DNA from: Desulfobacterales bacterium
Lineage (GTDB): Bacteria; Desulfobacterota; DSM-4660; Desulfatiglandales; Desulfatiglandaceae
Assembly: GCA_027027005.1 (NCBI GenBank)
Contig: JALVMN010000113.1
Span: forward strand, 1 to 41,535
Direction of reading: 5' to 3'
DNA: 41,535 nt
Made by a program: the position numbers and the translations under genes. Position 1 is the stretch's first letter, and every line of letters begins with the position of its first letter. The notes under the pieces are model-generated. The model searched no databases, was not told the origin of the DNA, and saw nothing but the letters and a program-made list of their open reading frames with translations. This document shows, one piece after another, positions 3 through 4,432 of the stretch.

Positions 3-581
3 GAGATCAGGGGGCTATTGAGGCAGAAACAAAGGGAGGGGATTATCGTATCCTGGTCCCTGAACAGCCCCTACATCTCAGGTAAGGAGGAAAAGGGGGC
101 AGCCCCCCTGAAAAAGAGGATCCTTGCCGCACGGACATGTCAGGAAGAAGGATTTGCAGTTGGATTCCACTTTGACCCCATGGTCTGGTATCCCGGATGG
201 AAAGACGGCTACGAGAGGACCGTGGAGGTGTTGGCCCAACACATAGACCCTGCTCAGGTGGTGTGGATAAGCGTGGGATCATTCAGGTATCCTCCATCCC
301 TTAAACCCATAATCAGGGCCAGGCACCCACAGACCAGGATATTTGAAGGGGAGTTCATCAGGGCCCCTGACGGAAAAATGCGTTATTTTAAACCAGTCAG
401 AGTTGAGTTATACCAATTTATTAAAGAAAAGCTTGATGCCTGGAGTAAACGGCTCGGCCTCTATCTGTGCATGGAATCGAGTGATGTTTGGGAAAAGGCC
501 CTTGGGTGGTCGCCAGGCTCTTCAGACGGGCTTTCCCAATACCTGGACGATAGGGTTAGAATAATTTTTGGTTGGCATTAG
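3..581 (+). CDS. SplB-like radical SAM protein (spore photoproduct lyase family), 3' part
   Basis: The reading frame is open to the left edge, so the start and the radical SAM cysteine cluster lie outside the window. The visible ~190 residues match the C-terminal half of the spore photoproduct lyase (SplB/COG1533-type) family: a VSWSLNSPYI strand, a GFHFDPMVWYPGW segment, a WISVGSFRYPP segment, a GKMRYFKP segment and a final LYLCMESSDVWEKALGW segment. Family members use a [4Fe-4S] cluster and SAM; the founding enzyme reverses the thymine spore photoproduct, but homologues in non-sporulating bacteria are common and their substrates are mostly unknown. The TTG at 18 is an internal Leu codon, not a start. 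The gene ends 69 bp before the NifU-domain gene. Family is confident; exact role is not. Confidence 0.8.
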   Translation, partial: EIRGLLRQKQREGIIVSWSLNSPYISGKEEKGAAPLKKRILAARTCQEEGFAVGFHFDPMVWYPGWKDGYERTVEVLAQHIDPAQVVWISVGSFRYPPSLKPIIRARHPQTRIFEGEFIRAPDGKMRYFKPVRVELYQFIKEKLDAWSKRLGLYLCMESSDVWEKALGWSPGSSDGLSQYLDDRVRIIFGWH

Positions 582-970: not shown

Positions 971-1831
971 ATGGAAATCAAGAAGATCGGTGTAGTTGGA
1001 GCTGGGACCATGGGCCACGGTATTGCCCAGGTGGCTGCCCAGATTGGCTGCGACGTGGTAATGAGGGACATTGAGCAATCCTTCGTGGATCGAGGCCTGA
1101 AAAATATCGATAAGTTTCTTTCTAAAGGTGTGGAAAAGGGCAAACTGGACCCTGCCCAGAAGGATGAAATTATGGGCAGGATAAAAGGGACCACTGACAT
1201 GTCAGACCTCAAGGACGTGGATTTCGTGATTGAGGCTGTCATCGAGGACCTTGATCTTAAAAAGCAAGTATTCAAGGAACTTGACGAACTCTGCCGACCT
1301 GAGGTGATCCTTGCATCCAATACCTCTTCCATGTCCCTCACAGAGATCGCCTCTGCCACCAAAAGGCCTGACAAGGTGGTGGGAATGCACTTTTTCAATC
1401 CAGTCCCCCTCATGAGACTGGTGGAAGTGATAAGGGCCTATTTCACCAGCGATGAGACAGTGGCCACCACTACTGATCTTGCAAAAAAGATGGGGAAGGT
1501 CACTGTGGAAGTGAAGAAGGACTCCCCTGGCTTTATCGTTAACAGGATAATGATCCCCCACATGCTTGAGGCCATAAAGATAGTTGAAGAAGGTATTGCC
1601 TCCATCGAGGATGTGGATATTGCCGTGAAAAATGGGCTTAACTATCCCATGGGCCCCTTCGAACTCATGGACCTCACAGGTGTTGATATTGCTTATTTTG
1701 TGACAGAATACCTCCACAAGGAACTCAACAAGGAGCTTAAGTGGGTGGCTCCAACTCTTCTCAAGAACATGATCAAGGCAGGCAGGCTGGGCAGGAAGAC
1801 CGGTGGAGGCTGGTACGATTATAGTGAGTAA
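971..1831 (+). CDS. hbd: 3-hydroxybutyryl-CoA dehydrogenase
   Basis: A 286-aa NAD(P)-dependent 3-hydroxyacyl-CoA dehydrogenase that oxidises 3-hydroxybutyryl-CoA to acetoacetyl-CoA, or the reverse. The N-terminal Rossmann fold starts with GVVGAGTMGHGIAQ (dinucleotide-binding loop, residues 8-20). The catalytic region has NTSS (117-120), His140 in GMHFFNPVPLMRLVEVI, and Glu152. The C-terminal dimerisation domain begins near NYPMGPFELMDLTG. The length is that of the short clostridial Hbd/PaaH type, without a fused crotonase. ATG 971 is chosen because GGAGGAGG (958-965) is well spaced; the GTG at 965 lies inside that ribosome-binding site. It supplies the one beta-oxidation step missing from the thiolase/crotonase cluster at 27.8-36.6 kb, though it is transcribed separately. 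Confidence 0.95.
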   Translation: MEIKKIGVVGAGTMGHGIAQVAAQIGCDVVMRDIEQSFVDRGLKNIDKFLSKGVEKGKLDPAQKDEIMGRIKGTTDMSDLKDVDFVIEAVIEDLDLKKQVFKELDELCRPEVILASNTSSMSLTEIASATKRPDKVVGMHFFNPVPLMRLVEVIRAYFTSDETVATTTDLAKKMGKVTVEVKKDSPGFIVNRIMIPHMLEAIKIVEEGIASIEDVDIAVKNGLNYPMGPFELMDLTGVDIAYFVTEYLHKELNKELKWVAPTLLKNMIKAGRLGRKTGGGWYDYSE

Positions 1832-1882: not shown

Positions 1883-1917
1883 GGCAGCCGCCCGGAAGAG
1901 GGCGGCTGCCATTTTTT
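1883..1917. terminator. Bidirectional rho-independent terminator
   Basis: GGCAGCCGCC (1883-1892) pairs perfectly with GGCGGCTGCC (1901-1910); an extra C-G pair (1893/1900) gives an 11-bp stem with a 6-nt loop. Six Ts follow on the plus strand (1912-1917), and the plus strand is A-rich before the stem (1876-1882), giving a T-rich tail on the minus strand. It lies between the convergent hbd gene and the small ribosomal-type gene and can serve both. Confidence 0.93.
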
Positions 1918-1930
1918 CATAAGCAAGCGC

Positions 1931-2020
1931 CTACTTGTTCTTGTGGCGCATCTTTTTTCTCATCTTTCTATATTTATGTTTCCTGATCTTTTTTCGTCTT
2001 TTTTTGACAACACTTCCCAT
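1931..2020 (-). CDS. 29-aa basic protein, bS22 / AURKAIP1-COX24-like
   Basis: A very short gene found by reading the minus strand. It encodes 29 residues starting MGSVVKKRRKKIRKHKYRKM and ending RKKMRHKNK, about 60% Lys/Arg. The GSVxKKRRKKxxKHK pattern is that of the AURKAIP1/COX24 domain family, which includes the mycobacterial ribosomal protein bS22 and mitochondrial mS38; these peptides thread into the small ribosomal subunit near the decoding region. A GGAGG ribosome-binding site (plus-strand 2031-2035) is 10 nt upstream of the ATG, a TTGACA promoter lies just before it, and a strong hairpin terminator follows the stop, so it appears to be a complete single-gene unit. Family match is from memory of the pattern; the coding evidence is strong. 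Confidence 0.88.
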   Translation of the reverse strand: MGSVVKKRRKKIRKHKYRKMRKKMRHKNK

Positions 2021-2051
2021 TAAATTGTGACCTCCAGCAAAATCTCAGAAA

Positions 2052-2081
2052 TTTTTACTACATTGGGCTCGGAAGTGTCAA
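2052..2081 (-). promoter_or_regulatory. Sigma70-type promoter for the bS22-like gene
   Basis: On the minus strand TTGACA (2076-2081) is followed after 18 nt by TAAAAA (2052-2057). Transcription would begin near 2045, leaving a leader of about 25 nt with the GGAGG site before the ATG at 2020. The -35 is perfect, the -10 matches 4 of 6. Confidence 0.6.
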
Positions 2082-2192: not shown

Positions 2193-3092
2193 CTAAGCCA
2201 TGTTTTTCTTGGCCGGTTTCAACTCAATGCCCTTGCTTCGATAGAGTTCCTGATCGGCCTTTCTCAACATCCTTTCCATTTCTTTTTCAGTAGAAAAACT
2301 TCCCACACCAAAACTAACATCTAGGGAACACCGTCTCTGTATGGCCTGGTTGATGCGCTCTCCTATCGTGCGAGCTGTCTTTTCATCTGCGTCTATGAGG
2401 ATGATTGCAAATTCATCCCCTCCGTACCTATAACCGGAATCTACGTCCTCGCGAATATTGGAGTTTATGATGTTGGCCACCTCTTTTAGTAGGTTGTCGC
2501 CTGCCAGATGACCATATGTGTCGTTATAGGCCTTGAATTGATTGAGGTCCATGAGAATCACGGACAGATCAGTTTTCTGCCTCCGAGCCCTGTTTATCTC
2601 CTCTTTGAGCCTGGCGTAAAAATGCCGCTGATTATATAGGCCTGTCAATGAATCAGTAATGGAGAGACGGTTCAACTCCCTTTTTATATCTCGCTCAACA
2701 ATGGCCCGCCTAATCTTTGCCTCAAGCTCTTCCACCCTAAAGGGCTTGTTGATAAAGTCAGTGGCTCCTGCGTTGATAACGTCCACATATCCATATCCCT
2801 TGGCCATCCCTGTCATGGCTATAATGCAGATCTCAGGGTATTCTTGTGCCACGATCCTTATGAGCTCCATGCCGTCCATTTCCGGCATCCTCATGTCAGT
2901 AACCAAAAAGGTGATGTCATCATTTTTGAGGATTTTCAGGGCCTCTGGACCTGATTCTGCGGTCTGGGCGTTAAAGCCCAATTGGACCAAGGTATGGGCG
3001 AGGCTCTCTCTTACCGGAGGTTCGTCATCCACCACCAGGATGAACTCGTTGGCATAGTTGATATTACTAAGAGAATCTCGGCATTGACTCAA
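2193..3092 (-). CDS. Response regulator with GGDEF diguanylate cyclase domain
   Basis: A 299-aa cytoplasmic two-domain protein. Residues ~17-130 form a receiver domain: acidic pocket VVDDE, phospho-acceptor Asp66 in VTDMRMPEMDG, conserved Lys116 in FINKPF. Residues ~140-295 form a diguanylate cyclase domain with an intact GGDEF active site (224-228), preceded by TDSLTGLYNQRHF. It probably makes cyclic di-GMP when phosphorylated. The product-inhibition I-site (RxxD, nine residues before GGDEF) reads EDVD, so feedback inhibition may be altered. The start is a TTG whose last two bases and next A overlap the miaB stop (TTGA), so translation is probably coupled to miaB. No cognate kinase is adjacent. 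It is the last gene of the long minus-strand run. Confidence 0.9.
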   Translation of the reverse strand: MSQCRDSLSNINYANEFILVVDDEPPVRESLAHTLVQLGFNAQTAESGPEALKILKNDDITFLVTDMRMPEMDGMELIRIVAQEYPEICIIAMTGMAKGYGYVDVINAGATDFINKPFRVEELEAKIRRAIVERDIKRELNRLSITDSLTGLYNQRHFYARLKEEINRARRQKTDLSVILMDLNQFKAYNDTYGHLAGDNLLKEVANIINSNIREDVDSGYRYGGDEFAIILIDADEKTARTIGERINQAIQRRCSLDVSFGVGSFSTEKEMERMLRKADQELYRSKGIELKPAKKNMA

Positions 3093-4432
3093 TTGAGGCC
3101 CCTCTCTTTCACCGGCTGGCCAACCAGCGAGTTCCTGTTAGCCCTTACAATCTTAACTTTAACTTCGTGTCCTATCATACCGTTATCTAACGGAAAATTA
3201 ACAATTTTGTTTGTGGGTGTCCTCCCCATGAACTGGCCTGGTCTCTTGCTTGGGCCCTCAACCAGGACGGAAACCACGTCTCCCACCATCTCTTTGTGCT
3301 TCTTGAACGTCATCTCTTTCTGGTATTCCTGCAATATGGAGAGCCTTTCGGCCTTCTCCTCTTCAGGGACCTTTGGGCCCATAGATGCCGCCAGCGTGCC
3401 CTCCCTGTCCGAATATTTGAAGGAGAAGAGCCCGTCAAATCCAGCCTCTCTTATGAGGTCCATGGTTTTCTGAAAGTCATCCCGCCCTTCCCCCGGGAAA
3501 CCCACCATCACGTCACTGGTTATTGCTATGTCAGGCCGTACTTGCCTTAGTTTTTTCACCAGGCCCAGGTAATGTTCCCTGGTGTACCCCCTTTTCATGA
3601 GCTTCAAGACCTTATTGGAGCCTGCCTGAAAAGGCAGGTGGATATGGGGGCACAGGGGCTCCACCTGCACAAAACATGAGATAAGGCTATCTGAGAGGTC
3701 CTTGGGGTGTGAGGTGGTGAAACGAAGCCTCAACAACCCCTCCAGCCTCCCCACCTCTTGAATCAGTCTTGGGAAGTCCCATTTATCTTTATCGGTCACC
3801 CACAGGTAGGAATTAACATTTTGTCCCAGAAGTGTTACCTCCTTTACGCCTTGGTGGATAACTTCCTTAATTTCCTTGATAATTTCATGCGGAGGCCTGG
3901 AGACCTCCCGACCCCTGACGTAAGGGACGATACAATAGCTGCAAAAGTTGTTACACCCCTGCATGATGGATACAAAGGCAGTGACCCGCCCCTCGAAATA
4001 GCCGGGGCAGTGCTCCGGCTCTGGAGGGGCATGATCCAATTGGAGGGCTAGCAGTCTGTCTCTGGTTTCAAGGATCTTGCTTACGGTTTCCTTTATCTCG
4101 GCAATTTGTCTTGGACCCATTACAAAGTCCAAGGATGGGAATCTCTCCATCAAGGCCTCGCCCTTTTCTTGAGCAAGGCAACCAACCACTCCAAGTATCA
4201 TCTCGGGCCTTTTTTTCTTGAGCTTAGACAACCTTCCGATCAAAGTGGATGCCTTTTGCTCTGGCTTTGCCCTGACTGTGCAAGTGTTGACCACAACCAG
4301 GTCTGCCTCTTCAGCAGACCCAGACCTCTGCCAACCCATATTGAGCAGGCACTGGGTAATATAGTCAGAATCATACACGTTCATCTGGCAACCAAATGTA
4401 TGTATGAAAAACTTCATGTTCGTCTTTAGCAT
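3089..4432 (-). CDS. miaB: tRNA-2-methylthio-N6-dimethylallyladenosine synthase
   Basis: A 447-aa radical SAM methylthiotransferase that converts i6A37 to ms2i6A37 in tRNAs reading UNN codons. The N-terminal UPF0004 domain has the three auxiliary-cluster cysteines (Cys15 in TFGCQMN, Cys51 in NTCTVR, Cys85 in VGCLAQ). The radical SAM cluster is CNNFCSYC (Cys160, 164, 167), and the C-terminal TRAM domain covers about the last 65 residues. Length and motif set fit MiaB better than MtaB or RimO. The ATG at 4432 overlaps the stop of the upstream DUF4911-like gene (ATGCTAG) and follows GAGG, implying coupling; a second ATG at 4417 (MKFFIHTFG) is an alternative start. The downstream GGDEF gene overlaps its stop. 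Confidence 0.95.
   Translation of the reverse strand: MLKTNMKFFIHTFGCQMNVYDSDYITQCLLNMGWQRSGSAEEADLVVVNTCTVRAKPEQKASTLIGRLSKLKKKRPEMILGVVGCLAQEKGEALMERFPSLDFVMGPRQIAEIKETVSKILETRDRLLALQLDHAPPEPEHCPGYFEGRVTAFVSIMQGCNNFCSYCIVPYVRGREVSRPPHEIIKEIKEVIHQGVKEVTLLGQNVNSYLWVTDKDKWDFPRLIQEVGRLEGLLRLRFTTSHPKDLSDSLISCFVQVEPLCPHIHLPFQAGSNKVLKLMKRGYTREHYLGLVKKLRQVRPDIAITSDVMVGFPGEGRDDFQKTMDLIREAGFDGLFSFKYSDREGTLAASMGPKVPEEEKAERLSILQEYQKEMTFKKHKEMVGDVVSVLVEGPSKRPGQFMGRTPTNKIVNFPLDNGMIGHEVKVKIVRANRNSLVGQPVKERGLN

Follow-up and report, generated by a model that had tools for sequence, protein, structure and literature searches.

The question raised by this locus is whether a reading frame of 29 codons, on a contig from a Desulfobacterales bacterium, encodes a small-subunit ribosomal protein of the bS22/mS38 family. 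The window (the whole stretch of DNA analysed, 41,535 nucleotides) had been described in an earlier note as holding a complete gene of this kind with a consensus promoter, a ribosome-binding site and a shared hairpin terminator, and the peptide had been proposed to extend the range of such proteins beyond actinobacteria.

Gene and expression signals

The frame runs on the minus strand from an ATG at 2020-2018 to a TAG stop at 1933-1931, and its 29 codons specify the peptide MGSVVKKRRKKIRKHKYRKMRKKMRHKNK, roughly 60% of which is Lys and Arg. The following features were annotated (window coordinates, strand, description and basis):

971..1831, plus strand: convergent neighbour, 3-hydroxyacyl-CoA dehydrogenase (Pfam PF02737 and PF00725; synteny)
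1883..1910, both strands: bidirectional intrinsic terminator hairpin, common to the bS22 gene and the convergent 3-hydroxyacyl-CoA dehydrogenase gene (terminator scan)
1931..2020, minus strand: predicted bS22 (COX24_C family) coding sequence, 29 aa (profile searches and orthologues)
2031..2035, minus strand: Shine-Dalgarno sequence GGAGG, 10 nt 5' of the ATG (sequence)
2052..2060, minus strand: weak -10 region TAGTAAAAA, read as TAAAAA at spacer 18 or TAGTAA at spacer 15 (sequence)
2076..2081, minus strand: -35 hexamer TTGACA, perfect (sequence)
2193..3092, minus strand: upstream codirectional neighbour, response regulator-GGDEF protein (Pfam; synteny)
3089..4432, minus strand: further upstream, UPF0004/radical SAM/TRAM protein, a MiaB-type tRNA methylthiotransferase (Pfam; synteny)

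The ribosome-binding site was recovered as described earlier, and its 5-base core was found upstream of 39 of 40 distinct orthologous copies from the class. The promoter had been overstated: the -35 hexamer is perfect and is conserved among the same 40 copies (TTGACN in 31/40, TTGACA in 26/40), whereas the -10 region is weak and a sigma-70 scan of the window did not report the promoter-like site. Similar TA-rich -10-like motifs occur in relatives at roughly the same spacing. The shared terminator was confirmed as a hairpin of 11 pairs, 10 of them G-C, which is strong for the plus-strand gene (tail ATTTTTTCAT) and weaker for the bS22 gene (tail TTAATTTTCA), and analogous bidirectional hairpins lie at the equivalent place in relatives. 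An Rfam search of the window returned no matches.

Gene neighbourhood

The layout around the gene is fixed across the order, with the MiaB-type, response regulator-GGDEF and bS22 genes following one another codirectionally and then facing the convergent dehydrogenase gene and/or a NifU-domain gene. By dehydrogenase identity, the closest named relatives were Deltaproteobacteria MAG Ww165 (84%) and strain NaphS2 (83%), the latter of which also carries the bS22 gene; these matches would place the window in the Desulfobacterota order to which NaphS2 belongs. Outside the order, none of the window's neighbour genes was found within 1.5 kb of bS22 in the families and phyla that were sampled. An operon with ribosomal genes was looked for and none was found; in the order, bS22 comes after the MiaB-type and response regulator-GGDEF genes and has a promoter-like site of its own. 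The response regulator-GGDEF gene stands between the other two order-wide, a linkage without apparent reason. Positions 3-581 (plus strand) encode a truncated spore photoproduct lyase-like protein (PF20903), of which the contig end leaves the C-terminal part; the lineage is not known to form spores.

Selection on the reading frame

A very short frame of low complexity invites the explanation that it is a chance Lys/Arg-rich ORF whose resemblance to bS22 comes from composition alone. Using a profile built solely from peptides of other classes and phyla, the window peptide scored 44.0 bits, and none of 5000 same-composition shuffles came near this value (maximum 14.4). Across the 40 distinct class copies, mean pN was 0.096 and mean pS 0.98 (ratio 0.098), a codon-level signature of purifying selection. 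Entropies at the three codon positions were 0.33, 0.27 and 1.21 bits, so that variability at the third position exceeded that at the first and second 3.6- to 4.5-fold, and stop codons broke the alternative frames in 12 to 38 of the 40 copies. Chance is excluded because of the shuffles, the codon-position pattern and the synteny; the conserved Shine-Dalgarno and -35 elements and the presence of the gene in most relatives also speak against it. The chance explanation is already refuted by this conservation pattern, and we give it practically no weight. The complete 29-codon gene of the earlier note is borne out by the exact ORF, selection, synteny and orthologues.

Assignment to the bS22/mS38 family

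The earlier note had ascribed the peptide pattern to the bS22/mS38 family and had proposed a search with the COX24 profile. This search was run and supported the family: the peptide reached 26.6 bits with Pfam COX24_C/DUF1713 (PF08213), above the gathering cut-off of 23, and a six-frame search of the whole genome matched a single locus (24.4 bits, E 1.2e-4). With the NCBIfam bS22 equivalog NF047430 the score was 30.2 bits, just below the curated cut-off of 34; the score by itself therefore does not justify the equivalog label, and the assignment rests on other evidence. Four close-clade orthologues from the same order straddle that cut-off (39.8, 35.6, 33.7 and 33.0), and members from other Desulfobacterota families and one from Chloroflexota scored 39 to 63 bits.

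Structures in the PDB were searched using a profile built jointly from the window peptide, related peptides and bS22 of actinobacteria. Actinobacterial bS22, which is itself represented in this profile, was matched with E down to 1e-13, and mitochondrial mS38 with E of about 3e-5 to 3e-4. The window peptide alone matched mS38 (6xyw) at E 0.009 and actinobacterial bS22 at E 1.6e-4 to 0.5. An alignment of Desulfobacterota, one Chloroflexota and two actinobacterial bS22 sequences left M1, S3, V4, K6, R8, K16, K19 and R25 invariant. Membership in the bS22/mS38 family (COX24_C, PF08213) is supported at the level of sequence by the Pfam result, the NCBIfam result (several orthologues above the cut-off), the PDB profile matches and the conservation.

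Comparison with known members of the family places the peptide on the bS22 side. The alignment showed the N-terminal GSVxKKRRK motif, the KxRK core and a Lys/Arg content above 50% that mark bS22. Actinobacterial bS22 (Mycobacterium smegmatis, M. tuberculosis, Cutibacterium acnes; NF047430; PF08213/DUF1713) is likewise small, begins MGSV-x-KKRRK and is about 60% basic, and it aligns with the window peptide end to end, without internal gaps, at 48-52% identity. The two differ in length (29 residues in the window, 33 in actinobacteria), the window C-terminus being 4 residues shorter, and mycobacterial K15 is replaced by H. The C-terminal domain of mS38 (AURKAIP1/COX24) shares the Pfam domain, and the PDB profile match covers about 27 residues of it. 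Mitochondrial mS38 is extended at its N-terminus by a long segment and a targeting sequence, and the bridge it makes is specific to mitochondria (PMC6582356), whereas the window ORF consists of the C-terminal-type domain only, with neither an N-terminal extension nor a mitochondrial targeting sequence.

The bS22 of Flavobacterium johnsoniae and Borrelia burgdorferi occupies the same pocket and is similar in overall nature (PMC10618245). In sequence, these forms are probably further removed than actinobacterial bS22, because their PDB chains were not retrieved by the combined profile at E up to 10. The eL41/aL41 proteins are also short basic helices in an equivalent pocket (PMC10618245, PMC10085706). 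No sequence match to them was obtained in the combined-profile PDB search. Homology between eL41/aL41 and bS22 is disputed.

That the peptide is an independently evolved, eL41-like filler of the same rRNA pocket, non-homologous to bS22, gains some ground from the different basic helices that occupy the pocket across lineages (PMC10618245, PMC6582356) and from a small residue alphabet, which makes convergence easier than usual; the score just under the NCBIfam cut-off and the shortened C-terminus also count against the bS22 assignment. We regard this origin as extremely improbable given a position-specific match over the full length, including the eight invariant residues, and intermediates, scoring up to 63 bits, that link the peptide to bS22 of the M. 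smegmatis type.

Predicted position in the ribosome

In solved structures, a 16S pocket formed by h2, h27, h44 and h45 houses bS22 as a basic helix, whose contact with 23S H67 or H68 makes an additional subunit bridge (PMC10618245, PMC10085706); the binding of mS38 to h44, close to the decoding site, is similar (PMC6582356). Our reading, to which we assign a probability of about 0.93, is that the gene encodes the bS22 of a NaphS2-related Desulfobacterota bacterium, a helix in the h27/h44/h45 pocket, with ribosome binding and the exact contacts carried over by homology. The predicted helix would sit beneath the decoding site, between 16S h27, h44 and h45, would brace upper h44, and on subunit joining would meet the large subunit at 23S H67/H68, as in the solved bS22 and mS38 ribosomes. 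Neither a ribosome structure nor ribosome proteomics for the window's clade was found in the literature and structures searched.

A bS22-related basic peptide might instead have its main role away from the ribosome, acting as an antimicrobial or binding nucleic acids, for instance, and C. acnes bS22 does inhibit bacterial growth as a free peptide (PMC10085706). The same study places bS22 at a fixed ribosomal site, the gene is usually single copy per genome and under very strong constraint, no export signal is visible in the peptide, and no immunity or export gene adjoins it. We consider an off-ribosome role very unlikely and retain the ribosomal reading.

The 16S pocket regions were compared in 15 Desulfobacterota genomes with readable 16S, and they were conserved in the six that carry bS22 and in the nine that lack it; the pocket being conserved equally without bS22, this comparison speaks neither for nor against the assignment. 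No signature separating bearing from lacking genomes was found in h27, h44, h45 or the 5' regions of these 15 sequences. Six 16S columns do split the two groups, a result that carries no weight with few sequences and gaps ignored. The 16S of the window's own genome was searched for and was not found.

It has been proposed that bS22 serves leaderless translation (PMC6582356). Unlike the actinobacterial hosts, bacteria of the window's lineage also retain bS21. It was present in the window's genome, and mutual exclusion of bS22 and bS21 was rejected (bS21 in 39/40 genomes with bS22 and 37/40 without). A leaderless-translation role fits the order poorly, because the 16S 3' end of relatives is CACCTCCTTT (an intact anti-SD), a Shine-Dalgarno sequence precedes bS22 and bS21 is present. 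Hosts of this kind weaken the published proposal of a role specific to leaderless translation.

Distribution

Using the bS22 model, bS22 was detected in 51 of the 61 closest relatives (E up to 1, a few weak rows included). A COX24_C search at E up to 0.1 recovered it from 66 of the class's 85 genomes, 60 of them scoring above the Pfam cut-off. There is as a rule one copy per genome. Together with the fixed synteny and the pN/pS of 0.098, this presence is the behaviour of a core gene. At least one apparent absence (G052) is an assembly gap, residues 16-30 being kept beside a run of N. A 99% complete genome (G103) gave no COX24_C match in a genus that is otherwise positive and that includes the bS22-bearing G175; a recent loss in G103 is possible.

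In an even sample of the phylum, 90 of 297 genomes matched (85 above the cut-off), clustering by family. Named positives were Desulfarculaceae, Syntrophorhabdus/Syntrophorhabdales and an Anaerolineae genome, in whose phylum 30 of 151 genomes matched. Desulfosporosinus, Heliophilum and most tested Bacteroidetes gave no COX24_C match (one Bacteroidetes genome gave a weak partial match below the cut-off), and the Bacteroidetes negatives mean little because bS22 is known there and COX24_C misses some bS22.

The extension of range was upheld in part. The gene does occur outside actinobacteria; the novelty of this does not stand, bS22 having been seen in F. johnsoniae and B. burgdorferi ribosomes (PMC10618245, PMC10085706), and the NCBI model already recognises it in other Desulfobacterota families and one Chloroflexota genome. 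Further bS22 proteins were predicted to emerge given their short length (PMC10618245), and within a partial coverage of the literature no paper pairing bS22 with Deltaproteobacteria was found. What is added here is a bS22 member in the NaphS2-like order lying at the annotation cut-off, the patchy distribution, and co-occurrence with bS21 in Shine-Dalgarno-using bacteria. In this anaerobic order bS22 is thus predicted to be a regular, probably core, ribosomal component with copies around the NCBI annotation cut-off, and family-by-family presence and absence within one phylum offers natural comparisons for bS22 function.

Mitochondria carry mS38. COX24_C matched 0 of 289 genomes in the class of G564, presumed solely from the label 'Sphingomonadales' to be Alphaproteobacteria, which suggests, if that label is right, that mS38 did not come from alphaproteobacteria by simple inheritance. 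A broader and more tentative idea, which we rate somewhat below even odds, is that bS22 is an ancient ribosomal protein of bacteria, patchy and repeatedly lost or transferred (Desulfobacterota, Chloroflexota and Actinomycetota, with distant forms in Bacteroidota and Spirochaetota), and that mS38 may not be of alphaproteobacterial origin, the latter because no copy was found in the presumed Alphaproteobacteria.

Two variations were noted among the collected sequences. For whole bS22 groups, TTG (or GTG) starts fit best (L136, L140, L143, L145, L148 and L149 in Desulfobacterota families; L160 in Chloroflexota), and such genes would easily escape annotation. A GSVLKWR variant of GSVxKKR occurs in L125, L126, L128, L131, L142, L147, L150-L152, L155, L157, L159, L161 and L163, and L125 and L126, the two loci examined, have the gene directly 3' of a metallophosphoesterase-like gene.
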